From: Methylococcaceae bacterium
GTDB lineage: Bacteria; Pseudomonadota; Gammaproteobacteria; Methylococcales; Methylococcaceae
DNA: 47,377 bases
Reading direction: 5' to 3'
NCBI GenBank assembly: GCA_902812445.1
Contig: CADDZF010000006.1
Coordinates: 1 to 47,377, forward strand
Numbering within the stretch: position 1 is the stretch's first letter; each line of letters starts with the position of its first letter. Positions 19,466 through 38,013 of this stretch are shown here, piece by piece. The position numbers and the translations under genes are program-made. The notes below the pieces were generated by a model that did no database searches, was not told the origin of the DNA, and worked only from the letters and a program-made list of their open reading frames with translations.

Positions 19466-19663
19466 GATCCTGGCCAGAAACTCACGCAGACCAAGAATTG
19501 CATGGGCTGTCATGCAATCGACAAGCAACTCGTCGGTCCTGCCTACGAGTTTCCGGGGGATATGCCGATGCTGGCGCGGCCGATGAGCAGCGCCGAGGTC
19601 CACCAGCGGGTCGCTCGCATTCTCGAGCGGCGAAGCAGCGGAGGAGGAACTGAATGGCCGTAG
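19466..19663 (+). pseudogene. Truncated c-type cytochrome (c551/c5-like) remnant
   Basis: The frame after TAG 19463-19465 reads KLTQTKNCMGCHAIDKQLVGPAY, the heme-binding block (CMGCH) and following helix of a small electron-transfer cytochrome c. It then jumps to PGDMPMLARPMSSAEVHQRVARILERR, which resembles the Met-ligand and C-terminal helix region with about 40 residues missing between. No start or signal peptide is present in frame. It overlaps the nirK start by a few bases. It looks like the decayed remains of a cytochrome that once preceded nirK, possibly its electron donor. Confidence 0.6.
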
Positions 19664-21237
19664 CCGTCCGCCCTTGGGCCATGCCAGCGCTCTTGCTCGC
19701 GATGTTGACTGCCTGCAACCGCCCAGAAAATGCGGTCTCGGCGAGGCAGGATAGCGCCGCGCACGCGGATCCTTACGACATGCGCCGCATGGATTTCAAG
19801 CCGCCCAAGGCGTTGGTGACCTCTGAGCGTCATGCCGGGCCGTTCGCCGCCGGCAACGCGATCAGCATGGATGCTTACGTCAAGCCGCTGTCGGCAGAGC
19901 CGGTGAAGGAGGTAAGGCTCGACACCACCCACAAGATCATCGAAATCGCGCCCGGCGTGAAGTTCAGTGCCTGGACCTTCGGCGACACGGTACCCGGCCC
20001 GGTGGTGCGCGCGAAAGCGGGAGACCGCATCAAGTTCACCATGAGCAACCGTTCGGACGAGGCGGTGCCTGGAGTGCGGATCACGGCGCCGCCGATGATG
20101 CATTCGATGGATTTCCACGCGGCCATGGTATCGCCGCAGGACAAGTACCGCTCGCTCGCGCCGGGGCAGACTATCGCGTTCGAGTTTACCGCCAACTACC
20201 CCGGCGTGTACATGTACCACTGCGGCACGCCGATGGTGCTGGAGCATATCGCTTCCGGCATGTACGGGATGATAATCGTCGAGCCCCGCGGCGGCTACCC
20301 GACCAAAGTCGATCGTGAGTATGCCATCATTCAAAGCGAGTTTTACACCAAACTCGATCCACAGAAGCGCCAGGTGGATGGCGCACCGCTGTACGTGCTC
20401 GACGGCGATCGCGTGAGGGCAAAGGCGCCGACATACACGGTGTTCAATGGGCGCCACAATGGCTTCGTTGACCAGCCGTTGCCAGCCAAGACGGGCGAGC
20501 GGGTGCGGCTGTTCGTGCTGAACGTGGGGCCGTCCAACACGTCGAGCTTCCACGTCGTTGGCACCATCTTCGACAAAGTATGGATCGAAGGCAACCCGGA
20601 CAACCCGTTCAGGGGCATGCAGACGGTGCTTCTTGGCTCGTCGAACTCTGCGATCGTGGAGTTCATGATCCCCGAAGAAGGCAATTACGTGATGGTTGAC
20701 CACCATTTCGCCAATGCCTCACAGGGCGCCATCGGCGTGATCGCGGCCGGCGCTCCTGCTGGCGGCCTCGAGCACCACAACATACCCGCGACCCAGGCGC
20801 CCACTGATCCGGTGGCCGTGAAGGGCAAGCTCGACTTCGAATCCAAGTGTCTCGCCTGCCACTCCATTGCTGGCGGCGACAGGCTTGGACCAGACCTCTA
20901 CGGAGTCACCAAACGGCGCGACGATGCCTGGCTCACTCGCTGGATGAAGACACCCGAGCAGATGCTGCAGACCGGCCCGGAGGCTGAGGCGATGCTCGAG
21001 AAATGGAAGGTGTCTATGCCCAACCAGAACCTTTCCAACGAGGAGATCCGACAGTACATCGCCTACTTCAAATGGGCCGATCAGAACCTCCGTCCGCAAG
21101 GCACGATGCAGCCCCAGCCGGCCGCACCGGGCACCGCCTTGCCCCCTTCGCAGACGAAGTCGGCCACCCCCATGCCGGCTCAGCCTGCGCCGCCGAAATC
21201 GCCGACCACCCGCGCCCGCCACGGAGGACCTTCGTGA
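19654..21237 (+). CDS. nirK: Copper nitrite reductase fused to a C-terminal cytochrome c (lipoprotein)
   Basis: NirK reduces nitrite to nitric oxide in the periplasm. The 527-residue product has a lipoprotein signal (lipobox LTAC, Cys21) and two cupredoxin domains (about 80-215 and 220-370). Type 1 copper ligands are His150, Cys190, His198 and Met203. Type 2 ligands are His155, His189 and a His of VDHH (350/351). Catalytic Asp153 (MDFH) and His300 (SSFH) are present. A cytochrome c domain follows (CLACH, residues 399-403), then a Pro/Ala/Gln-rich tail. Heme-tethered NirK is known from some betaproteobacteria such as Ralstonia pickettii; the tether supplies electrons directly. Start ATG 19654 follows GGAGGAAC. 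No nor or nos genes are in the window, so full denitrification cannot be claimed. Confidence 0.93.
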   Translation: MAVAVRPWAMPALLLAMLTACNRPENAVSARQDSAAHADPYDMRRMDFKPPKALVTSERHAGPFAAGNAISMDAYVKPLSAEPVKEVRLDTTHKIIEIAPGVKFSAWTFGDTVPGPVVRAKAGDRIKFTMSNRSDEAVPGVRITAPPMMHSMDFHAAMVSPQDKYRSLAPGQTIAFEFTANYPGVYMYHCGTPMVLEHIASGMYGMIIVEPRGGYPTKVDREYAIIQSEFYTKLDPQKRQVDGAPLYVLDGDRVRAKAPTYTVFNGRHNGFVDQPLPAKTGERVRLFVLNVGPSNTSSFHVVGTIFDKVWIEGNPDNPFRGMQTVLLGSSNSAIVEFMIPEEGNYVMVDHHFANASQGAIGVIAAGAPAGGLEHHNIPATQAPTDPVAVKGKLDFESKCLACHSIAGGDRLGPDLYGVTKRRDDAWLTRWMKTPEQMLQTGPEAEAMLEKWKVSMPNQNLSNEEIRQYIAYFKWADQNLRPQGTMQPQPAAPGTALPPSQTKSATPMPAQPAPPKSPTTRARHGGPS

Positions 21238-21600
21238 TCGCGGTAGCGCGGGCGCTCAAGTGGTATCGCTTGCCATCACGCTGAGACGCTCCTGCAGCGA
21301 CCTGCCCAACGAGTGCGCTCGCTCGATTATCTAGCGGTTAGCACCGCTCGTATCCGTTGCAGATATCGCGATTCGAGACGATGTCCATCGATCGTTCTCC
21401 ACGTCATAGTAGCCAGTGAACCCGCGGACCGTTTCGAACAAGCATCAATTCTTGTTCTGGGTGGCCATAGGTGTCCAGGCAATAAAAGGGGAACTTGGGC
21501 AGGTTTGATCCCGTTAACCGTCCGTGGGCGCGCCCGGCAGCGCCATTACCGGCGACGTGGCACGCTGTGCCCACCGTCGCTGCGACTGGGTACTAAATTA
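21238..21600. other. Intergenic region between nirK and the multicopper oxidase gene
   Basis: A 113-codon open frame (21313-21654) shows no recognisable motif, and its end crosses the Fur-type operator and promoter, so it is probably not a gene. I see no strong terminator after nirK. Confidence 0.4.
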
Positions 21601-21604
21601 AATC

Positions 21605-21633
21605 TTGTTCCAGTAAGTGATAATTATTATCAT
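21605..21633 (+). promoter_or_regulatory. Sigma-70 promoter candidate overlapping the Fur-type operator
   Basis: TTGTTC at 21605-21610 is separated by 17 bases from TATCAT at 21628-21633. It faces the multicopper oxidase gene at 21673. The -10 element is covered by the palindrome at 21618-21632, the classic geometry for repression. Confidence 0.5.
21618..21632. promoter_or_regulatory. Fur box, perfect 7-1-7 palindrome
   Basis: TGATAAT-T-ATTATCA is a perfect 7-1-7 inverted repeat, identical to the core TGATAATnATTATCA recognised by the ferric uptake regulator. It lies 41 bases before the start of a ceruloplasmin-like multicopper oxidase and over its predicted -10 box, so iron-dependent repression of that gene is expected. 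Confidence 0.75.
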
Positions 21634-21672
21634 CTTTCCATCTTGTACTCTTGAGGTGGGCGGATAAGCCTT

Positions 21673-22845
21673 ATGAATTGGGTCAGTAAACGTCAAGAAA
21701 TAAAGTTTAGGTTACTGGATTTGCTTCGAATGGTCGGTATCTGTGTCCTGGTGATCTTGCTTCCGCACGATTCGGCCATCGCGTCGATGACAAGGGTTTA
21801 TTACATCGCCGCCGAGGACGTGCTTTGGGACTACGCGCCTTCTTATCCTGTCGATATGATGACGGGCAAGGAACTCAATGAGAGGCAGAAAGTATTCGTC
21901 GAAGGCAATGGGGTCGATCGCATTGGTCGCAAATACTATAAGGCCCACTTCGTCGAATACACCGATGACACGTTTACCCAAATCAGGCCGCGCCCGGCCG
22001 AATGGGAGCATTTGGGGATACTCGGGCCAGTTGTCCGGGCTAACGTAGGCGATACTCTAAAGATCGTTTTTAAAAACAAGATGGCCGATAACGACGCCTC
22101 GATGCATCCACACGGGGTATTTTATCGCAAAAATAGTGAAGGAACCTTGTATGAGGACAGCACAAGCGGAGAAGATAAGGCCGATGATACGGTCAGGCCC
22201 GGCGCGATCCACACTTATATCTGGGAAGTGCCCGCCCGCGCGGGACCCGGACCCAATGATCCGAGTTCTATCGTCTGGCTTTATCATTCTCACGTTGATG
22301 AGCCTAGGGACGCCAATACCGGGCTGGTGGGCCCGATCATTATTTCTCGGCGGGGATTGTTACAAGAGAATGCCAAGCTAAAGAACATCGATCGCGAATT
22401 TGTCGTTCTATTTACCGTGTTTGACGAGAACAACAGTTTGTACTTCAATAAAAACGTGGCGGCTTTCGCGCCACAGGCGGATGTAGAGGATGAAGATTTT
22501 CAAGAAAGCAACCTAATGCACAGCATGAACGGTTACCTCTATTCCAACCTACCCGGCCTGGAAATGAATGAAGGCGAGAAGGTGCGCTGGTATCAGCTTG
22601 CATTGGGTACTGAAGTCGATCTCCACACGCCGCACTGGCACGGCAACACGCTGACGTCGAACGGATCGCGGGTTGATGTGCTTAATCTGCTCCCAGCGAC
22701 CCAGCTCACGGCGGATATGAGGCCCGACAATCCGGGCCGGTGGATGTATCATTGCCACGTTAACGATCATATTGACGCTGGCATGATGGCGCACTATACG
22801 GTAGAGCCCAGAGGGAACAATCGCGACCGCCTTGCAAGGCATTGA
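21673..22845 (+). CDS. Two-domain multicopper oxidase, ceruloplasmin/hephaestin-like
   Basis: The 390-residue protein has an N-terminal signal or anchor helix (about 16-32) and two cupredoxin domains. All four HxH copper motifs of laccase-type enzymes are present: HPHG (145-148), HSH (205-207), HTPHWHG and YHCHVNDHIDAGM. The last carries the type 1 Cys, His and Met. The opening YYIAAEDVLWDYAPS resembles ceruloplasmin and hephaestin. Such enzymes oxidise Fe(II) or Cu(I) with reduction of O2 to water. The perfect Fur operator over the promoter supports a ferroxidase role in high-affinity iron uptake or iron protection. No permease gene is adjacent. Two-domain forms usually act as trimers (family knowledge). 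Confidence 0.9.
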   Translation: MNWVSKRQEIKFRLLDLLRMVGICVLVILLPHDSAIASMTRVYYIAAEDVLWDYAPSYPVDMMTGKELNERQKVFVEGNGVDRIGRKYYKAHFVEYTDDTFTQIRPRPAEWEHLGILGPVVRANVGDTLKIVFKNKMADNDASMHPHGVFYRKNSEGTLYEDSTSGEDKADDTVRPGAIHTYIWEVPARAGPGPNDPSSIVWLYHSHVDEPRDANTGLVGPIIISRRGLLQENAKLKNIDREFVVLFTVFDENNSLYFNKNVAAFAPQADVEDEDFQESNLMHSMNGYLYSNLPGLEMNEGEKVRWYQLALGTEVDLHTPHWHGNTLTSNGSRVDVLNLLPATQLTADMRPDNPGRWMYHCHVNDHIDAGMMAHYTVEPRGNNRDRLARH

Positions 22846-24121: not shown

Positions 24122-24904
24122 ATGCTCATCCGAATATTACTGATGGCTCTTGGGCAGATCGCCGGCCTTCTCATACCCTTGTTCGTGTCGGCTGCGGAAG
24201 ATAATCTTCCCGCCATTATCGAGAAGGTCAAGCCCAGCATCGTCGGTGTGGGGACCTTTGTAAAGACCCGTTCGCCTCCCGCCTTGTTGCGTGGTACAGG
24301 ATTTGTCGTCGGCAGTGGGACGCTGGTGCTGACCAATGCCCATGTACTACCCGAGATTGTGGCTGGCGAAAGATTTGAGCAGCTGGTGGTTGCTTCGCGT
24401 AGCTCCAATAAGGAGACATTGCGGGGCGCGGTAAAGGTAGCTGTCGATGAAGAGCATGATATCGCCCTGTTGAAAATCAGCGGCGACGCCCTACAGGCCC
24501 TGCAATTGGGAAATTCCGACCAGGTTCGCGAAGGTGAGTTGTACGCATTTACCGGCTTTCCAATCGGCATTGTGCTCGGTTCATATCCGGTGACACACCG
24601 AGGCGTTATTTCTGCCATTAGTCCGATCGTGCTTCCGGCGCTCACTCCGCGCCAGCTCAATCCTGTGATGCTACACAGGCTGAATAATCCTTATGATGTC
24701 TTCCAGCTTGACGCGACTGCTTATCCGGGCAATAGTGGCAGCCCTTTATACGACACCCGGATCGGCCAAGTGATCGGTATCATCAACAGCGTTTATATCA
24801 AAGAAACCAAGGAGAACGTGCTCGAGAAACCCAGTGGCATAAGCTACGCGATCCCGATCAAATACGCGGTAGAGCTGCTAAAGCAGCGCGGCCTTAAGCC
24901 GTAA
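24122..24904 (+). CDS. DegP/HtrA-type serine protease without PDZ domain
   Basis: The 260-residue exported protease has a signal peptide at about 1-25 (ending VSAA). A trypsin-fold domain with a complete triad follows: His74 in TNAHV, Asp113 in EEHDIALLKI and Ser205 in GNSGSP. The chain stops right after the protease domain (AIPIKYAVELLKQRG), where HtrA proteins would continue into PDZ repeats. It could therefore lack the regulated oligomeric behaviour of DegP. A substrate cannot be deduced. It stands alone between two intergenic regions, upstream of the HPr-rel-A type operon. The ATG sits after GACAATGAG with a weak ribosome site. Confidence 0.9.
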   Translation: MLIRILLMALGQIAGLLIPLFVSAAEDNLPAIIEKVKPSIVGVGTFVKTRSPPALLRGTGFVVGSGTLVLTNAHVLPEIVAGERFEQLVVASRSSNKETLRGAVKVAVDEEHDIALLKISGDALQALQLGNSDQVREGELYAFTGFPIGIVLGSYPVTHRGVISAISPIVLPALTPRQLNPVMLHRLNNPYDVFQLDATAYPGNSGSPLYDTRIGQVIGIINSVYIKETKENVLEKPSGISYAIPIKYAVELLKQRGLKP

Positions 24905-25073: not shown

Positions 25074-25102
25074 TTGGTCAGTAGAAGATTGAATCTTATA
25101 AT
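25074..25102 (+). promoter_or_regulatory. Sigma-70 promoter for the HPr-rel-A type operon
   Basis: TTGGTC at 25074-25079, a 17-base spacer and a perfect TATAAT at 25097-25102 face the gene at 25213. The leader would be about 100 nt. A ribosome site GGAAGGA is at about 25199-25205. Confidence 0.55.
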
Positions 25103-25212: not shown

Positions 25213-25971
25213 ATGAATATTGACGAAAAAAAACACGACGAGAGTCCTTTACAGGCTAGCAAATTCAGGGAGAGCTACTTCGGGAATACTTCAAGGGTCA
25301 GGCGTTCTCTAGTAAAAGCTGCCGCGATTTCTCCAGTAATCCTGACCCTGCGGAGTGGAGCCGCTGCGGCAATGACTAGTGCGGAGTCGTGTATTGTCAA
25401 GGACCAGCAAGCCGCACAACAGGCGGCCGAGATGGATCCTGTCCTGCAAACGGCGGATCCATCGTCCCCAGAGCCGGAGGAGTCTTTGGCGCTCACCTCA
25501 CATCAGGATGGCTGGCTAAGATCGCCTGTAGTAGTTAGAAATATACGAAGAGTCCGCAAGAAAAAAGGCAAATGGATTTACAAGGGCAAGAGTCCCTATG
25601 TTAAGGTCTATACTCATCAGCCGAAAGGAAGGTTCTCCTGGTGGAGCTATAGGAACAAACGGCGGAAGAAGTCGTGGAATTATCGGGATTCCGGACAGCT
25701 GATCGATATATATGATCCAACGGGGAAATTTGTATTGTTAACCGGCGGCATCTTGATGTTCCGAGGCCCTACCAAAAAAATCCGTTATGTAGGAATACCC
25801 GAACAAGACATTGAACAATACGGACTCGTGGCGCTGGATGAAAGCGGAGCTATTCTCCAAGATGAAGAGGGAATGCCAGCTATCGGGATGGCGCTCGAGG
25901 GCGGCGCTCTGCAGAGCAACCACATTACAGCTTCTTGTTGGCTCTCGCTAAATCCGAATATAGTGACCTAA
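25213..25971 (+). CDS. Hypothetical exported protein with Tat-like leader, candidate client of the HPr-rel-A system
   Basis: This 252-residue protein has no domain I recognise. Near the N-terminus Arg30-Arg31 begin RRSLVKAAAISPVILTLRSG-AAAA, a twin-arginine-like leader with the PV.LTLRSG.A.A pattern that I associate with small proteins encoded beside PqqD/HprK-related genes. Cys60 follows the likely cleavage area. The middle (about 105-150) is extremely Lys/Arg/Trp-rich with KKKGKWIYKGK and NKRRKKSWNYR. A beta-rich section follows, and the C-terminus is TASCWLSLNP with Cys242. The two Cys could form a disulfide after export. The PqqD-like frame overlaps its end. It is the first gene after a good promoter, as expected for the substrate of the operon. 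Function is unknown; the client role is inference. Confidence 0.8.
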   Translation: MNIDEKKHDESPLQASKFRESYFGNTSRVRRSLVKAAAISPVILTLRSGAAAAMTSAESCIVKDQQAAQQAAEMDPVLQTADPSSPEPEESLALTSHQDGWLRSPVVVRNIRRVRKKKGKWIYKGKSPYVKVYTHQPKGRFSWWSYRNKRRKKSWNYRDSGQLIDIYDPTGKFVLLTGGILMFRGPTKKIRYVGIPEQDIEQYGLVALDESGAILQDEEGMPAIGMALEGGALQSNHITASCWLSLNPNIVT

Positions 25972-26288
25972 AGCTCTGGCGAGCAGAGCCCAAAGTGATC
26001 GAAATCAGTAGGCAAACATGGAAGGCGTGTGCTTCGGGAACGCTGCTCTGGGAACAATGGAATGGCGATTACATCGTTTATAACTCGCATTCCGGAGAGA
26101 CTCATTTTCTGAACGAGCTGGCCGCTATGGCCTTGAAAAGCCTTGAAGAGGTTCCGTGCAATGCGGAACAACTGGCTAAAACAATGGCCATGCGAGATTC
26201 AATCGCGGCGGACCTCGATACACCCGATATGCAGCGTCTCATCGAAGAATTTGACTCATTAGGACTGATAGAGCCCCACCCATCGTGA
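25935..26288 (+). CDS. PqqD-like protein of the HPr-rel-A system
   Basis: PqqD-type domains bind leader peptides and present them to modifying enzymes. The recognisable core LLWEQWNGDYIVYNSHSGETHFLNELAAMALKSLEE is typical of the PqqD-like branch associated with HprK-related kinase A. The longest frame starts at TTG 25935 and overlaps the upstream gene by 37 bases. GTG 25996 would give about 97 residues, closer to the family size; neither has a good ribosome site, so the start is open. The stop overlaps the GTG start of the kinase gene (GTGA), showing tight coupling. By analogy it could bind the leader of the exported protein encoded just upstream, which is untested. Confidence 0.82.
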   Translation: MLALAKSEYSDLKLWRAEPKVIEISRQTWKACASGTLLWEQWNGDYIVYNSHSGETHFLNELAAMALKSLEEVPCNAEQLAKTMAMRDSIAADLDTPDMQRLIEEFDSLGLIEPHPS

Positions 26289-27223
26289 GAATTGCCGAGT
26301 TTAGTAGCGATGCTCTTAAGACACGTCTTCACACGAGCGGACTTTATACCCAAACCGGCCCTTTCAAAATACGAATAAAAAGTAATTCCCGCCCTTTCAT
26401 CGAATCTCTACGATTCCTGTATGCCGATTACGCCGTACTGGATCGACAATTGGCAGATTTCCACGTTGCCCTCGAGCTGCAAACTAATTATCGGCGCTGG
26501 TTCCATCCGCAAGTCTTGTTCAAGATTGATGGAAAAAGTCCCTTTCAGCCTTTCCCGAACGAGTTAAGCCCTCCGTTATTTGAATGGGGTTTAAACTGGT
26601 GTATCGGGACGCGCGCTCACCACTATTTGATGCTTCACTCCGCTGTTCTGGAGAAAAACGGCAAGGCGCTTATTCTTCCCGCTCATCCGGGTTCCGGCAA
26701 GAGCACGCTTTGCGCCGCGCTTGCTTTGAGCGGGTGGCGCTTGTTGTCGGATGAATTCGGCCTGATCGATACAAAAAGTACCTGCCTGGTCCCGATCCCT
26801 CGCCCCATCGCTTTGAAAAATGAATCCATCAATGTGATCCGAAAGTTGTTTCCGCAAGCCGCCATCGGCCCTTCCTTTCCTAAAACGAGAAAGGGCACCG
26901 TCGCGCACGTTCGACCTTCCATCATGAGTGTCGATCAAATGGACCAGCCAGCACAGGCGGCCTGGATCATCTTTCTGAAATATAAAGCAAGCTCGCCCGT
27001 GGTTTTAGAACCTTTTGACAAAGCCCAATCCCTCTTGCGACTTGCCAACAATGCATTCAACTATGAAGTTTTGGGAAAGCAGGGTTTTCAGCTGGTGAGC
27101 GCCTTGGTGCGGAGTTGCCAATGCCTTTGGCTTAGCTATGGAAATTTGGAGGAAGTCATTGAAAGACTTGATGCGCTCGATGTAACCGGCTATGCCAGCA
27201 CAATTGACGTACACTCGGCCTAG
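26285..27223 (+). CDS. HprK-related kinase A (HPr-rel-A system)
   Basis: The 312-residue protein has a P-loop of the HPr kinase/PEP-carboxykinase type. HPGSGKST (Lys139) is preceded by LHSAVLEKNGKALILPA and followed by LSGWRLLSDEFGLID, whose acidic pair matches the second metal-binding strand of HprK. The HprK capsule-like N-terminal domain is absent and replaced by about 110 residues of unknown fold. Start GTG 26285 overlaps the PqqD stop by four bases. In known HPr kinase the target is Ser46 of HPr; here no HPr is nearby and the substrate is unknown. Residues of the C-terminal half overlap the next gene by 32 bases, so all three enzymes are probably made together. Confidence 0.88.
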   Translation: MRIAEFSSDALKTRLHTSGLYTQTGPFKIRIKSNSRPFIESLRFLYADYAVLDRQLADFHVALELQTNYRRWFHPQVLFKIDGKSPFQPFPNELSPPLFEWGLNWCIGTRAHHYLMLHSAVLEKNGKALILPAHPGSGKSTLCAALALSGWRLLSDEFGLIDTKSTCLVPIPRPIALKNESINVIRKLFPQAAIGPSFPKTRKGTVAHVRPSIMSVDQMDQPAQAAWIIFLKYKASSPVVLEPFDKAQSLLRLANNAFNYEVLGKQGFQLVSALVRSCQCLWLSYGNLEEVIERLDALDVTGYASTIDVHSA

Positions 27224-28298
27224 AGAGCTGTTACTAAGTTGCTTGGCGCATCCCAGTTTAGTCATCAATTTGAGCGAGATCGAATGGGATATGCTGCTAC
27301 CGCTCACCCGGCATTCCAAGCTAATGGGGCGCCTGGCGGAACGCCTCATACAACTAGGTATTTTTAATCGGCTTCCTGCACGAGTTCAAGACCATTTGAT
27401 CGGCTCCATGCGTTTGACGGAGCATCGCCAGCGCATGGTGCTATGGGAGATAAATCGCCTGGAAAGGGCCCTAAAAACCTCGGGAACAACTGTACTGGTC
27501 TTGAAAGGAGGGGCCTATATTCTAGCGCGCTTATCGGCAGGCAGCGGCCGGTTACTCGCCGACGTGGACATTCTGGTAGCCCACAACGATCTCGATACGA
27601 TTGAGAAACTTCTTTTGTCCCAAGGCTGGGAAGCGGTTCAACTGGATGATTACGATGAGCATTATTACCGGGCATGGATGCATGAAATTCCGCCGCTACG
27701 ACACCGCGATCGGTGCATTGAGGTCGACGTGCACCACACGGTTCTGCCCGTCAGCAGCCGCTATAAGCCGAATCCGGAGCTCTTGCTAACCGAAGCGAGG
27801 CCCGTTGAAGGTTGTCAGTTCAAGGTACTCGCTCCGTGCGACATGATTCTCCACAGCGCGGCACATCTGTTCCTGGATGGTGAATTCGTCAATGGCTTAC
27901 GAGACTTGTCTGATATCGATCTGTTGCTGCGTGAATTCAGTCAAAAAGACAGCCGTTTTTGGACTCGATTATTGCACCGTGCTGCCGAGATGAAACTTAC
28001 GCGGCCGCTTTTTTACGCGCTACGTTATACACGACGGATGCTCAAGACCCCGGTTCCCAGACGTGCCGTGGTGGCTGCCGAATTTTATTCGCCGGGTCGA
28101 CGTATGGCTCGGATCATGGACGCCCTGTTTGAACGCGCGCTGATGCCCGACATCCCCGACGTCAACGATCGCTGGACCCCGCTTGCCCGTCGCTTGCTCT
28201 TGATGCGCTCGCATTGGTTGAAAATGCCGCCCGCATTATTGGCCTATCATACGTTTCGCAAAAGCGTAAAGCGCTGGCGTCCTAGCGCCCCCAAGTGA
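27192..28298 (+). CDS. Nucleotidyltransferase-fold protein of the HPr-rel-A system
   Basis: The 368-residue protein belongs to the NTP_transf_5-like group of the DNA polymerase beta superfamily. Its signature is VLKGGAYILARLSAGSGRLLADVDILV, with the G[ST]...D.D metal-binding block. Further support is EVDVHHTVLPV, which supplies the third acidic residue, and a helical region RDLSDIDLLLREF. It overlaps the kinase gene by 32 bases. These proteins recur beside HprK-like kinases and PqqD proteins and have been linked to exosortase-type exopolysaccharide clusters, but their reaction is undetermined. It ends the operon; a convergent RimK-like gene ends 37 bases on. Confidence 0.85.
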   Translation: MPAQLTYTRPRELLLSCLAHPSLVINLSEIEWDMLLPLTRHSKLMGRLAERLIQLGIFNRLPARVQDHLIGSMRLTEHRQRMVLWEINRLERALKTSGTTVLVLKGGAYILARLSAGSGRLLADVDILVAHNDLDTIEKLLLSQGWEAVQLDDYDEHYYRAWMHEIPPLRHRDRCIEVDVHHTVLPVSSRYKPNPELLLTEARPVEGCQFKVLAPCDMILHSAAHLFLDGEFVNGLRDLSDIDLLLREFSQKDSRFWTRLLHRAAEMKLTRPLFYALRYTRRMLKTPVPRRAVVAAEFYSPGRRMARIMDALFERALMPDIPDVNDRWTPLARRLLLMRSHWLKMPPALLAYHTFRKSVKRWRPSAPK

Positions 28299-28335: not shown

Positions 28336-29805
28336 TCAAGCCGACCGGCGGGTTTCAATTCTGCGCACAAGCTCGCTGATAATCCGTGCATATAGCTCAT
28401 CACCGAGCAGCTGATCCTCTATGCCGGCATCGATACTGGGATTATCATTGATTTCGATCACGAATACGCCTGTATCGGTTTGTTTCAAATCGACACCGTA
28501 AAGCCCGTCCCCGATCAACCTCGCCAGCGCGATGGCGGTATTGACGACTTCGCTTGGTGTATCCGTCACGCGCCAGGTTTTGGAACCACCTTCTACCGCA
28601 CGACCCGATGATTCATGCTTCACCACTTGCCAGTGCGCGCGCGACATAAAGTACTGGCAGGCATACAGGGGCTCGTGATTGAAGATGCCGATTCGCCAGT
28701 CGAATTGCGTATAAAGAAATTCCTGGGCCAGAATGAGATCAGACTCCTTGAACAGTCTTTCCGTAATGTCCTTGTATTCCCGCGCGTTGTTCGCCTTGAA
28801 TACGCCTCTTGAAAAGGAGCCGTCGGGAATTTTCAGCACGATCGGATAATCGATCTCGTCCTGCACCGATTCCACATTGGCTTTTTGCAGGACCTTGGTT
28901 TTCGGGCGGTTGATATGATGCGTCGTCAATAGCTCATCCAGGTAAACCTTATTAGTGCATTTGACGATGGAGTCAGGATCATCCACGACGGTCATTCCTT
29001 CAATCTGCGCTTTTTTGGCGAACCGATACGTGTAATGGTCAATAGCAGTCGTTTCGCGGATGAACAGCGCGTCGTATTCAGCCAGTCGCCCGTAATCCTT
29101 GCGCTCGATTAACTCCACGTCGACCCCTTGCTTTTTGCCCGCCTTGACAAACTTTTGCAAAGCCGCGGAATTGGATGGCGGCATTTTCTCGCGCCGGTTA
29201 TGCAGTATCGCGAGATCATAGCGAGCCGTATTTTTCGTTCTGGGCGTGCGCCAGGGCTTGCTGAGATAGCTGTTCAGCGCCTCGATAAAAAGGCGTTTCT
29301 GGAACTCGTCCAGCGTGCCCAAATAAGTGGGCTTGACCGTTGAGATATGCCATTTCCCCTGAAAGCGAAATTCCACCTTCAGTAACGGGCAGCGGAACAT
29401 ATCGAAGATCTGGCGGGCCAGGTCCTGCATATCCGGGTCTTCACAGCGGCCGAAGAAAATGGCCAGCTCAAAATTCTGTTCGGGTCCTCGCTGTTGCTTT
29501 TTAAAGCTTTTCTGAACCAGCGCGTCGAGGTCCTCCACATTGAGGCTGTAGATGGCCTTGCTGCTGAGATTGGTAATCGTCTTGACCGACGGGATGACCT
29601 TGTAGCGGCGGGGCTCGGCCAATAGCGAACAGTAGTAGCCGGTACTGAGATAACGATAGCTGCGGCACAGGTTGATGACGCATGTTTCTCTGGATTTGAG
29701 ACAGTCCTGACTGGAGAGGTACGCCTTCGCGGTAATGACCTGGACGCAAGGAAAATCGGGCCGCCAGTCCTTGAGGTTCTCGACCAATACGACGTGATTA
29801 GGCAT
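28336..29805 (-). CDS. RimK-family ATP-grasp ligase
   Basis: The 489-residue protein has a C-terminal ATP-grasp domain at about 290-485. Motifs are KCTNKVYLDELLTTHHINRPKT, YPIVLKIPDGSFSRGV, LILAQEFLYTQFDWRIGIFN and GVDLKQTDTGVFVIEINDNPSI, the last carrying the Mg-binding Glu/Asn. The N-terminal 280 residues contain a RimK-like preATP-grasp region and an extension specific to this subfamily. RimK-type enzymes ligate amino acids such as glutamate to peptide ends; the substrate of this branch is unknown. Its start overlaps the end of the upstream GNAT-C39 gene by eight bases, so the two are co-translated and likely act together. The pair occurs in many gammaproteobacteria. Confidence 0.92.
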   Translation of the reverse strand: MPNHVVLVENLKDWRPDFPCVQVITAKAYLSSQDCLKSRETCVINLCRSYRYLSTGYYCSLLAEPRRYKVIPSVKTITNLSSKAIYSLNVEDLDALVQKSFKKQQRGPEQNFELAIFFGRCEDPDMQDLARQIFDMFRCPLLKVEFRFQGKWHISTVKPTYLGTLDEFQKRLFIEALNSYLSKPWRTPRTKNTARYDLAILHNRREKMPPSNSAALQKFVKAGKKQGVDVELIERKDYGRLAEYDALFIRETTAIDHYTYRFAKKAQIEGMTVVDDPDSIVKCTNKVYLDELLTTHHINRPKTKVLQKANVESVQDEIDYPIVLKIPDGSFSRGVFKANNAREYKDITERLFKESDLILAQEFLYTQFDWRIGIFNHEPLYACQYFMSRAHWQVVKHESSGRAVEGGSKTWRVTDTPSEVVNTAIALARLIGDGLYGVDLKQTDTGVFVIEINDNPSIDAGIEDQLLGDELYARIISELVRRIETRRSA

Positions 29806-30922
29806 GCTGAGCTTTTGGGTGTTCGGTTTTCGCGTTGTTCTTCAATATCAAGGCTGCTTTCTGGCCCGATTTGCCATAACGGGCCATGCGCTGAAAATCC
29901 TTTTTCAGGATGGGCATATTGATGCAATCGGTTGATGTTTTGCCGGATTCATAGTCGATATAAGGATCATGAACATAGATATAACGCGCGTCGAAGCCTG
30001 TCACGACCACCCAGTGTGGAAATTTTTCGCGATAGATACGGTATGAGCTGATCAAGACCAGCGGTATGCCGCCTTGTTCAATTTTTTCCTGTATTTCATT
30101 GACGCTCAAGGCTCCGTAGATGATCTTGACCGGCAGCTCACTCAATTCGTCGAGAAAATCCTCCTGGACCAATTCCATGACTTCGCGTTTTTCCGGATCG
30201 CGCACGGAGGTGATAAATAGAGCGCCTTCATCATTGACGAAAACCTCTACGTCAAAACCACGATGACAAGCTGATACGGCCAAGCCATAGGGCCCGCAAC
30301 CACCATGTCCTGAAGTCATGAAGACCGTCGTGGATTCGCGCCAGATACGCAGCTCGAGCTTGCGGTGCAGTTGAATTTCCGGCGCCAATGTCTTCATCGC
30401 CATCATCAAAGTTGCAGGTCCGCAGGTAAAATCGAGCGTCTGCTGATAATACGGCACGCGCACCACGCCCGGCTGCAAGTGCGGCGCCAGCAGCTTTTCG
30501 AAGCGGAGGGCCTCCGTATGGTCTTCATAGTAATCCGGGACCGATTCCAGATAACGGTAGCCGTTTTTTTTGAAAAGATTGATGGAAGCGATATTGTCCG
30601 TGCGGATTTCCAGCCGCAACGTCACGCAATCGTTTTCCTGCGCCAGTTTCTCGGCGGCCTGCACCAGCCGGCTGCCGATTCTCTTGTTCCTGTAAGCGGG
30701 ATCGACGGCGTACGAATAAAGCCGCGCCAACGACGTGCCGGTATTGAATAACAGCATGGCATAACCGCGCACGACGCCGTTTTTTTCTTCCACCAGCGTG
30801 GCGGCATTTGCCTTGGTGAGCAGATAGCGGAAGCTGCGGCGGGAAAATCGGTCACTGTCGAAAGAGCAGTTTTCTATACGTTCCAGTGCATTCAGGTCTT
30901 TAAGCGCTGCCGGGCGTATCAT
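29798..30922 (-). CDS. GNAT acetyltransferase fused to a C39-like peptidase domain
   Basis: The 374-residue fusion has residues 1-150 as a GNAT N-acetyltransferase, with acetyl-CoA loop VDPAYRNKRIGSRLVQAAE and LRLEIRTDNIASINLFKKNGY, resembling RimI. Residues about 155-365 form a papain-like C39 peptidase: Cys of LDFTCGPATLMMAMKTL, His of FPHWVVVTGFD and Asp of YVHDPYID form a plausible triad. C39 domains usually cleave double-glycine leaders of exported peptides, but no transporter or peptide gene is attached here. The fusion with acetyltransferase and the downstream RimK-like ligase suggests a peptide or protein-terminus modification pathway; this is inferred from association only. Confidence 0.92.
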   Translation of the reverse strand: MIRPAALKDLNALERIENCSFDSDRFSRRSFRYLLTKANAATLVEEKNGVVRGYAMLLFNTGTSLARLYSYAVDPAYRNKRIGSRLVQAAEKLAQENDCVTLRLEIRTDNIASINLFKKNGYRYLESVPDYYEDHTEALRFEKLLAPHLQPGVVRVPYYQQTLDFTCGPATLMMAMKTLAPEIQLHRKLELRIWRESTTVFMTSGHGGCGPYGLAVSACHRGFDVEVFVNDEGALFITSVRDPEKREVMELVQEDFLDELSELPVKIIYGALSVNEIQEKIEQGGIPLVLISSYRIYREKFPHWVVVTGFDARYIYVHDPYIDYESGKTSTDCINMPILKKDFQRMARYGKSGQKAALILKNNAKTEHPKAQHA

Positions 30923-35239: not shown

Positions 35240-36217
35240 TCAAACCATTATTTTATAAGGTGCGCCGGCCTGTTCACGCACCAGTCGAGGCACCAGATAA
35301 CCGGGTAGTCTTTCGCGCAAGGCCCGGTGCAGCAAAGCAGCCTCTTGCAGGGGCACATCAAAATGCGCGGTGCCGCTCGCCTTGTCCAATAAATGCAGAT
35401 AATACGGCAAGACGCCTGCTTGAAGTAGCGCTTCGCTGAGCTCCATCAATGTTTGTGTCCGGTCATTGACGCCCTTCAGCAGCACCGATTGATTGAGCAA
35501 AGTGGCACCTGCCCGGCGCAGTTCGGCAAGCCCAGCGCGGACTTTGTCATCGAATTCATTGGCGTGATTGGCATGAATCACCATGACGATCTGCAGTTGC
35601 GTGCGCGTTAGGCACTGGGTGAATTTGGCCGTTATCCGCGACGGCAGCACGATGGGGAGACGAGTATGGATGCGCACACGTGCGACATGGGGAATGGCGG
35701 CGATTTTTTGCAGTAACACGTTCAGCCGCTCATCGCGCAGCACCAGTGGGTCGCCGCCGCTGAGAATGACCTCCCGGATGGTCGAATCGTTGGCGATATA
35801 GGCAAGCCCCTCGTTTTCGCGTTGCTTCGTAAGCTGGCTTTGATGATAAGGAAATTCACGGCGGAAACAGAATCGGCAATTGATGGCGCAACTGCCCGTG
35901 GTGATCAGCAGGGCGCGCCCGCGGTATTTATAGAGCACGCCGGGTGCTGCGATCGCTTCGCGGTCTCCGACCGGATCGGCCAGGTAATCGGGATGATACG
36001 TCATCTCCTCGGTTAGAGGCAGCACTTGCCGCAGCAGAGGATCCTCGATATTGCCTTGTTCCATTCGACTCGCGTAACTGCGGGTAACGCGGAACGGGAA
36101 ACGCTCGCTCGCCTCGTACCTGGCAAGGCCATCGCTCGGCAGGGCGAGATAATCCAGCAAATCTTCCGGCTGAGTAAAGGAATCGAGCAGCTCATTTTGC
36201 CAGGGTAATGTCTGCAT
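35240..36217 (-). CDS. epmB: EF-P beta-lysylation protein EpmB (lysine 2,3-aminomutase type)
   Basis: EpmB is a radical-SAM, PLP-dependent lysine 2,3-aminomutase that makes the (R)-beta-lysine attached to elongation factor P. The 325-residue product has the cluster motif CAINCRFC (Cys110, Cys114, Cys117), then RREFPYHQ. ILSGGDPLVL is the SAM-binding strand, and RIHTRLPIVLPSRIT and QSVLLKGVNDRTQTLMELSEALLQAGVLPYYLHLLD carry the PLP-side residues. It is shorter than clostridial KamA, as expected for EpmB. It is divergent from efp-epmA across a 244-bp hairpin-rich region, so all required genes of the pathway except the non-essential hydroxylase EpmC are here. Confidence 0.95.
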   Translation of the reverse strand: MQTLPWQNELLDSFTQPEDLLDYLALPSDGLARYEASERFPFRVTRSYASRMEQGNIEDPLLRQVLPLTEEMTYHPDYLADPVGDREAIAAPGVLYKYRGRALLITTGSCAINCRFCFRREFPYHQSQLTKQRENEGLAYIANDSTIREVILSGGDPLVLRDERLNVLLQKIAAIPHVARVRIHTRLPIVLPSRITAKFTQCLTRTQLQIVMVIHANHANEFDDKVRAGLAELRRAGATLLNQSVLLKGVNDRTQTLMELSEALLQAGVLPYYLHLLDKASGTAHFDVPLQEAALLHRALRERLPGYLVPRLVREQAGAPYKIMV

Positions 36218-36262
36218 AAAGGGGGATAGGTTTAAGTTTCCATGACGGGGAGTGCTTTCAAT

Positions 36263-36268
36263 TATAAT
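36263..36268 (+). promoter_or_regulatory. Possible -10 element of an efp promoter
   Basis: A perfect TATAAT faces efp, but no good -35 hexamer lies 16-18 bases upstream. If used, the transcript would start near 36275 and carry all five stem-loops described at 36295-36425 as its leader. Confidence 0.35.
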
Positions 36269-36294
36269 GCAGCTTATTTTTCCGTTGAATTATT

Positions 36295-36425
36295 AACCCG
36301 GCCCTTAATAGGCCGGGTTAATCCGGGTCAGGGATGCCCGGCGCGGCGCCAAGCCGCGTGAGCCAAGGCCGGGCGTGTACCGGCCTTGGCGATGGCCCGA
36401 AATACCAGGAGGCGATTTTCGGGCC
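36295..36425 (+). ncRNA. Tandem stem-loop array in the efp leader (candidate structured RNA or repeat element)
   Basis: Five perfect hairpins follow one another. AACCCGGCC 36295-36303 pairs with GGCCGGGTT 36311-36319. CCGGG 36323-36327 pairs with CCCGG 36337-36341. CGCGGC 36342-36347 pairs with GCCGCG 36353-36358. CCAAGGCCGG 36363-36372 pairs with CCGGCCTTGG 36380-36389. GGCCCGAAA 36394-36402 pairs with TTTCGGGCC 36417-36425. None is followed by a T-run. The efp ATG is 36 bases further on. It may be an efp regulatory leader, or a REP/BIME-like repeat cluster; I do not recognise a named family. Confidence 0.55.
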
Positions 36426-36461
36426 GGAATAATAAGTTGTTGAACCGAACAAGAGGACCCA

Positions 36462-37031
36462 ATGGCAGCTTTCAGCACCAATGAATTCAAGGGCGGCTTA
36501 AAAGTCATGCTCGATGGCGATCCATGCGCCATCATCGAGAACGAATTTGTCAAGCCGGGTAAGGGACAGGCTTTCAACCGCGTAAAGATCCGCAATCTCA
36601 GGACGGGTCGGGTGATCGAGCGCACCTTCAAATCGGGCGACACGCTGGAAGGTGCGGATGTCGTTGACGTCGAGATGCAATATCTCTACAACGACGGCGA
36701 GCACTGGCATTTCATGGTGCCGGATACTTTTGAACAGTACTCCGCCGATGCGACCGCCGTGAACGATGCGGCGAAATGGCTGAAGGAGCAGGACATCTGC
36801 ACGGTGACCCTGTGGAATGATGTGCCGCTTGCGGTTACGCCGCCCAACTTCGTGGTGCTGAAAATTGTCGAAACCGATCCTGGCGTGCGTGGCGACACTT
36901 CAGGCGGCGGTGGCAAACCGGCCACGCTTGAAACCGGCGCGGTGGTTCGCGTGCCGCTATTCGTTCAGAAGGATGAGTTGGTTAAAGTTGATACCCGCAC
37001 CGGCGAATATCTCTCGCGTGTCAAGGAATGA
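36462..37031 (+). CDS. efp: Elongation factor P
   Basis: EF-P relieves ribosome stalling at polyproline stretches. The 189-residue product has the three beta-barrel domains of the family. The modification loop [13 protein letters not shown] places Lys34 exactly at the site that EpmA lysylates in E. coli, and it is flanked by Pro-Gly and Gly. The closing segment [17 protein letters not shown] is the domain III signature. ATG 36462 follows AGAGGA. The epmA frame overlaps its end by 14 bases. With epmB divergent, the modified form is expected. Expression may depend on the hairpin-rich leader upstream. Confidence 0.97.
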
Positions 37032-38013
37032 AGCCGACTGGATACCGGTCTGTACGCTCGAGGCACTACGCCAAAGAGCCGCGATGCTTGCAGCGATACG
37101 CCGCTTTTTCGCCGAACGCGGCGTGCTGGAGGTGGAAACACCGTTGCTCTGCCGAGCGTCCGGGACGGATCCGAATCTGGGCGTCTTCTCAACCCGGTTT
37201 CACTCTCCAGGCCGAGCCGAAGGGCTCGATCTCTATCTCCAGACTTCGCCCGAGTTCGCCATGAAGCGTTTGCTGGCGGCGGGCAGCGGGCCGATCTATC
37301 AAATCTGTAAGGCATTCCGCAATGAAGAATGTGGCCGTTACCATAACCCGGAATTTAGCCTCCTGGAGTGGTACCGAGTCGGGTTCAGCCTGACACAACT
37401 CATGGATGAAGTCAGGTGCTTGTTGAGCGATCTATGCCGAAACCTGGCCGCCATCGAACAGTTCGAGCACATCAGTTACCGCCAGGCGTTCGAGCGCCAT
37501 ACCGGTGTGGACCCACTGACGGCTTCGATGGCTGATTTTATCGATTGCGCCCGGCGCTACGGCTTTCCCGAAGCGGTAGCCGTTTGCGGTAACGAAGTCC
37601 CTGTCTGGTTGGATTTTTTGTTCAGCCATCTGGTTCAACAACATCTGGGACGCGCCGGCACGACTTGTGTCTTTCATTACCCGGCTTGCCAACCATCATT
37701 AGCCAAAATCAACGCGCAAGATCCGCGAACGGTCGAACGCGCTGAAGTGTTTCTGGAAGGCATCGAACTCGCTAACGGCTTTTGCGAGCTGACCGATGCG
37801 GCCGAGCAAGCGCAACGGTTTGATCGGGACATCGCCTCGCGCCAACGAAGAGGTCTGCCTGCGATCGAAAAAGACCGGCGTTTCCTGGCAGCGCTCGAAG
37901 CGGGATTGCCCGATTGTTCGGGTGTGGCGGTTGGTTTGGACCGAGTGCTTATGTTGTCGATGGGAGCGAGCGCCATCGATGGCGTATTAGCGTTTCCGCT
38001 GGGCCGGGCGTGA
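37018..38013 (+). CDS. epmA: EF-P lysine--lysine ligase EpmA (PoxA/GenX)
   Basis: EpmA is a class II lysyl-tRNA synthetase paralogue that lacks the tRNA-binding domain and transfers beta-lysine to Lys34 of EF-P. The open frame extends upstream to 36865, deep inside efp, but GTG 37018 gives 331 residues, close to the 325 of E. coli, with a start overlapping efp by 14 bases. Motif 2 is [26 protein letters not shown] and the lysine-recognition [14 protein letters not shown] are present, and motif 3 is [12 protein letters not shown]. The mature start could also be the Met at 37084, but that would cut the N-terminal helix. It is the third gene of the EF-P lysylation set. Confidence 0.95.

Follow-up and report, generated by a model that had tools for sequence, protein, structure and literature searches.

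The HPr-rel-A operon of a Methylococcaceae bacterium and the predicted exported protein that is probably its dedicated substrate

Our analysis of a 47,377-nucleotide stretch of a Methylococcaceae genome (contig CADDZF010000006.1; hereafter the window) revealed four genes on the forward strand that encode a client protein, a PqqD-like protein, an HprK-related kinase and a nucleotidyltransferase-fold protein (Table 1). All four reading frames of the initial annotation were found at the positions and on the strand given there, and family models confirmed the three modifier genes. Kinase and PqqD-like protein both score above their curated NCBIfam cut-offs, and by these models the operon is a member of the HPr-rel-A cassettes; the general Pfam PqqD model reaches 19.2 bits on the window protein, under its cut-off of 23.4. 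HprK_rel_A is single-copy in the genome. A scan of the client against Pfam and NCBIfam returned no family match, and neither the client nor the serine motifs described below belong to any curated family. With respect to gene spacing, the overlaps of 4 and 32 bases stand, whereas the 37-base overlap between client and PqqD hinges on a TTG start at 25935. The alternative GTG start at 25995 leaves a short gap and brings the PqqD N-terminus closer to its homologues. The strong promoter proposed earlier was dropped, since the best site (TGGTCA-16-TATAAT at 25075) belongs to a count of 3 sites versus 2.9 expected in shuffled sequence, which is no excess.

Table 1. Window coordinates of the operon genes, of two client elements and of the protease gene upstream.
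Feature	Position	Strand	Basis
Secreted trypsin-like serine protease, probable accessory component	24122..24904	+	PF13365
Client, predicted exported protein of type 2	25213..25971	+	252 aa; adjacent homologues compared
Client leader R30-A53, RRSLVKAAAISPVILTLRSGAAAA	25300..25371	+	twin-arginine signal and conserved P-x-x-x-T-L-x-S-G
C-terminal motif S241-C-W-L-S245-L	25933..25950	+	conservation across type-2 clients
PqqD_rel_X peptide chaperone / RiPP recognition element (RRE)	25935..26288	+	TIGR04353, 44.7 bits (cut-off 35)
HprK-related kinase A, HprK_rel_A	26285..27223	+	TIGR04352, 380 bits (cut-off 200)
NTP_transf_5 nucleotidyltransferase-fold protein	27192..28298	+	PF14907, 194 bits (cut-off 31)

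Immediately 3′ of the operon, on the reverse strand (28336-30922), lie genes for an RLAN/RimK-like ATP-grasp protein and for a GNAT domain fused to a C39-like peptidase domain (DUF3335), which overlap by 8 bases and form a ligase-plus-acetyltransferase/peptidase set without obvious named function. Elsewhere in the window, positions 19654-22845 of the forward strand encode a protein that joins a cupredoxin domain to a C-terminal CxxCH cytochrome-like part, nitrite-reductase-like by eye, and is followed by a 390-aa multicopper oxidase. An ordinary EF-P modification set occupies positions 35240-38013 and consists of a KamA/EpmB-like protein, elongation factor P and a lysyl-tRNA-synthetase-like EpmA (by eye).

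HprK_rel_A matches above the cut-off were present in 41 of 369 genomes of the class, 10 of 30 further genomes of the window's family and 99 of 301 genomes of its order. In the class, 140 genomes gave weaker HprK-like matches under this cut-off, which represent further HprK-related families. Together with 80 named GTDB loci, the fetched loci amounted to 122 distinct kinase loci, for which the upstream genes were classified automatically and by manual reading (the automatic client calls at L144 and L200 were false and were excluded). A leader-bearing client, on whose presence beside orthologous kinases the initial annotation had staked its proposal, is encoded immediately upstream of PqqD at 109 of the 122 loci. 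Four loci are contig edges, so that the client is adjacent at 109 of 118 assessable loci and missing from this position at nine. Two kinases without adjacent client (L095 and L101, in genomes G369 and G376) share their genomes with unlinked clients of the window's class (L036 and L037), both of which terminate in SCWASL. Gene order, leader and C-terminal serine motif are conserved far above chance.

We distinguish two classes of clients, type 1 (n = 74 in the tree set) and type 2 (n = 37 including L036 and L037), which were assigned from sequence motifs partly by eye and whose bodies are otherwise unlike. The window client is of type 2. Twin arginines occur in nearly all clients and the genome encodes TatC (237.6 bits), which makes the client a predicted Tat substrate. 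Across the 37 type-2 clients the conserved leader columns are R30 (95%), R31 (100%), P41 (100%), T45 (100%) and L46 (97%), and outside the leader conservation is confined to S245 (97%) and one glycine column that we regard as an alignment effect. In a set of 18 type-2 sequences, M1, R30, R31, P41, T45 and S245 are the only invariant columns; S56, close to the N-terminus of the mature protein, is likewise conserved at more than 90%, and the client has several further serines. Type-2 bodies are mutually dissimilar and have in common the leader and S245. The extreme case is the 74-aa client of L064, which contains nothing besides the leader and the 12 residues GSACISCNASLI; that of L149 has 85 aa. 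The basic, Trp-rich core emphasized by the initial annotation does exist in the window client, but its conservation is confined to L036/L037-like clients and it was dropped as a functional core.

In the window client S245 (codon 25945-25947) stands in the context TASCWLSL, and it is the predicted modified serine. The strict motif SC[WLYN]xS[LIFV] extends from Methylococcaceae to Magnetococcales and lies 1-15 residues before the C-terminus. A looser C-terminal serine motif was found in 32 of 34 type-2 C-termini (9.8 by shuffling) and in 8 of 77 type-1 C-termini (6.5 by shuffling), but was defined after the sequences had been read, so that these counts are descriptive and more weight attaches to the alignment columns. 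It is also conceivable that the conserved Ser and Cys take part in a different chemistry. An AlphaFold model of the client (mean pLDDT 63) is rich in beta structure at its centre, and pLDDT falls below 50 in the C-terminal tail; such a seemingly disordered tail would suit a kinase substrate. A Foldseek search with this model yielded nothing usable (best E 0.27).

Type-1 clients are characterized by the motif CxxSGxxSGNxS directly after the leader and by a C-x-G-x-[ST]-P-G-Y-W-K ... LNA domain. The motif serines S58 and S62 (numbered on L058) are conserved at 99% and 100%, and one serine of this motif would be the type-1 counterpart of S245. The leader proline was dropped as a universal feature, being conserved at 97% in type 2 versus 46% in type 1. 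The type-1 body is a conserved folded domain that also occurs in large extracellular proteins. Other proteins (L228-L233) carry this domain (C/G-x-G-x-TPGYWK ... LNA) without leader or serine motif, several of them large and with repeated SLGD-W-D---G-QD (SdrD/Cna-B-like) units. At one locus (L236, genome G515) two different type-1 clients are encoded in tandem upstream of a single kinase.

Within the window's family, client and kinase show obligate co-occurrence. A leader profile of 40 residues (A4), run on 38 genomes of this family, gave hits in 10 genomes, with a single protein per genome and the kinase present in every case; in the remaining kinase genome, the eleventh (G373), the client is of type 1. 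A client of either type is accordingly present in 11 of 11 kinase genomes and in 0 of 27 kinase-less ones (p 8e-10); genomes of one family are not independent, and the genus-level test agrees (7/7 versus 0/8, p 1.6e-4). The leader protein is therefore not absent beside orthologous kinases, an outcome that would have refuted the proposal of the initial annotation. At the order level, a type-1 client match was obtained in 79 genomes, of which 75 carry the kinase (p 4e-44). In two of the four exceptions (G374, G655) the match covers no more than the body domain, within long ORFs, and the other two (G426, G645) concern short contigs. Free-standing type-1 body domains that were examined possess neither leader nor CxxSGxxSGNxS, which indicates that, in the cases read, the serine motif is client-specific.

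Client class also follows kinase phylogeny. On the kinase tree it changes once among 109 labels, compared to a shuffled mean of 29.8 (SH-aLRT 99). Of the 40 rows in the type-2 kinase clade, 35 are type-2 loci, none is of type 1 and five carry no label (L095, L101, L130, L148 and L165). Among the latter, the unlinked clients of L095 and L101 are of type 2, matching the tree prediction, and L130 is truncated by a contig end, with a remaining ORF that bears the type-2 motif GTCLCSISPN. In this ORF (L130, positions 1-670) a type-2-like client C-terminus continues into PqqD without a change of frame, which may reflect a fused client-PqqD gene or a frameshift at the contig end. Since both classes occur inside one family (G373 with type 1, the ten others with type 2), the pairing cannot be put down to taxonomy alone. 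On the nucleotidyltransferase tree client class needs two changes, and on the PqqD tree, which has too few columns to decide, eight. The co-segregation of kinase subfamily and client class fits the client as kinase substrate.

The kinase has the features of an HprK-type serine kinase, namely fold, P-loop and catalytic His/Asp. H118, the P-loop G136-x-G-K139-S, D156 and E157 were identified in the window protein, and H118, G136xGK139, D156 and E157 are 100% conserved in the 122 loci. Its structure model (pLDDT 92) has a PEPCK/HprK fold, with Foldseek matches to PEPCK and HprK/P; a PDB sequence search gave weak HprK matches only. The corresponding search with the nucleotidyltransferase gave no match. 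The D124-x-D126 motif of this NTP_transf_5 protein is 99% conserved at both aspartates across 119 loci.

The trypsin-like protease is a probable accessory component. At 19 of 109 loci a relative is encoded in the 3.2 kb preceding the kinase and in the same orientation. In the family the protease occurs in 10 of 11 kinase genomes versus 3 of 27 others (p 6e-6), often unlinked, and at the genus level in 6/7 versus 0/8 (p 0.0014). Sugar-dehydrogenase or XrtA/PEP-CTERM exopolysaccharide genes adjoin 27 of the 122 loci. Across the order, 93 of 99 kinase genomes have an exosortase-type match as opposed to 83 of 202 others (p 8e-21, kinship ignored), which suggests a common surface or exopolysaccharide role.

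We consider it probable that the operon combines a dedicated substrate with its modifiers, and that PqqD-guided phosphorylation of a serine and subsequent capping precede Tat export. Adjacency at 109/118 loci, presence in 11/11 versus 0/27 genomes of the family and class co-segregation all support modification of the exported protein by the other operon products, as the initial annotation had suggested. By analogy with the lasso peptide systems and those of linear polyphosphorylated peptides (LPP) we propose the following order of steps. In the cytoplasm the PqqD-like protein would bind the client leader at P-x-[IV]-[LM]-T-L-x-S-G and deliver the client to the kinase. The leader proline and hydrophobic residues are consistent with RRE binding; the RRE-binding motif is partly matched, as client leaders have no aromatic residue three positions before the proline, unlike lasso and LPP leaders. 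The kinase would then phosphorylate one serine, S245 of SCWLSL in type 2 and a CxxSGxxSGNxS serine in type 1, and the NTP_transf_5 protein might cap the phosphoserine with a sugar or nucleotide. Capping is the weakest step, because LppN of the LPP clusters had no detectable effect in the heterologous host used (PMC13381572). The client leader would also direct the modified protein to Tat export, after which, in many species, a trypsin-like protease of the periplasm may act on it, possibly by trimming. The end product would probably be an extracellular or matrix-associated protein.

A further-reaching version of this scheme is tentative. It holds that one serine of the Tat client is phosphorylated and then glycosylated or nucleotidylated via the phosphate, that two ancient kinase-substrate lineages thereby produce exosortase-type matrix phosphoglycoproteins, and that this is widespread in proteobacteria; the role in the exopolysaccharide matrix is its most speculative part. 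The minimal clients of L064 and L149, in which the body appears dispensable, and the linkage and co-occurrence of the protease would also fit a true RiPP, as has been proposed for LPPs (PMC13381572). The client body would then be a carrier, from which the protease frees a short phospho- or phosphoglycopeptide as active product, C-terminal in type 2 and N-terminal in type 1. However, most bodies measure 100-200 aa, the type-1 body is conserved, folded and shared with large extracellular proteins, and many loci have no linked protease, and we regard such a peptide product as rather unlikely.

The kinase belongs to the superfamily of the bifunctional HprK/P and might act as a reversible HPr-type switch in signalling, on the client or another protein, instead of as a biosynthetic modifier. 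This seems very improbable: exported protein, leader-binding protein and nucleotidyltransferase pair one to one with the kinase, client class co-segregates with it, and the Pfam/NCBIfam scan detected no HPr homologue among the operon genes. Still less credible is that the client is an ordinary Tat protein which merely neighbors the cassette. The nine assessable loci without adjacent client would be explained in this way, but the family-wide co-occurrence includes unlinked clients and client class changes a single time on the kinase tree, so that mere adjacency is strongly disfavoured.

A literature search on HPr-rel-A and near terms returned LPP and lasso peptide papers only, and no function, substrate or paper for HPr-rel-A itself. 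HPr-rel-A kinase and chaperone are annotated by NCBI under this name in many proteobacterial genomes, and the missing substrate class would now be supplied, along with a leader signature, one predicted serine region per lineage, a likely accessory protease and an exosortase/exopolysaccharide genome setting. The initial annotation contained neither the serine motif at the client C-terminus nor the second class of clients, and it did not mention the linked protease or the association with exosortase and exopolysaccharide genes.

Several known systems resemble the operon in part. As in HprK/P, the kinase has a PEPCK/HprK-type fold with H118, the P-loop K139 and D156 retained, but it possesses extra N- and C-terminal parts and its operon has no HPr partner. 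As in PQQ biosynthesis (PqqD/PqqA), a PqqD-fold protein would present a leader to a modifying enzyme, but the HPr-rel-A operon has no radical SAM enzyme, and substrate and chemistry are unrelated. Closer parallels exist to lasso peptides of the paeninodin type (PadeK/ThcoK; pseudomycoidin PsmK/PsmN), in which an HprK-like kinase acts on a conserved C-terminal precursor serine, a nucleotidyltransferase homologue caps the phosphoserine with hexose and B1 is PqqD-like. PadeK has been described to phosphorylate the C-terminal serine of the lasso precursor, and the addition of hexose to the phosphoserine depends on the homologous nucleotidyltransferase PsmN (PMC9266682). The lasso kinases share a His-Lys-Asp-Asp set (PMC9266682), with E157 of the window kinase at the reported position of the second Asp. 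Unlike these clusters, the window operon has no B2 peptidase, macrolactam cyclase or lasso core, and a lasso peptide cluster was dropped as an explanation because B2 peptidase and AsnB-like cyclase are absent among the scanned window genes; an AsnB-like neighbor at locus L041 is the XrtA amidotransferase TIGR03108.

The LPP systems of Bacillota likewise combine a discrete RRE, an HprK-like kinase and an NTP transferase with a linear precursor, of which LppK phosphorylates a single core serine (PMC13381572). Their precursors have a conserved N-terminal and a variable C-terminal part, and some LPP loci lie within polysaccharide loci. In contrast, HPr-rel-A clients carry a twin-arginine signal as leader and mostly measure 130-250 aa, the HPr-rel-A species are Pseudomonadota, Magnetococcales and a few others, and a trypsin-like protease is often linked. 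From the LPP leader motif YxxPxVLxHQxIxFETxxS the clients match P-x-[IV]-[LM] alone, with no Y at -3 and no HQ. An LPP-type SpI-like leader peptidase and an MsbA-like exporter were absent among the scanned operon genes and neighbors and the annotated recurrent neighbor clusters. The operon would work like the LPP and paeninodin-type systems yet is a member of neither, with leader motif, peptidase, exporter and cyclase either deviating or missing. The RRE/HprK/NTase logic, to date demonstrated on small peptides of RiPP clusters, would be extended to whole exported proteins.
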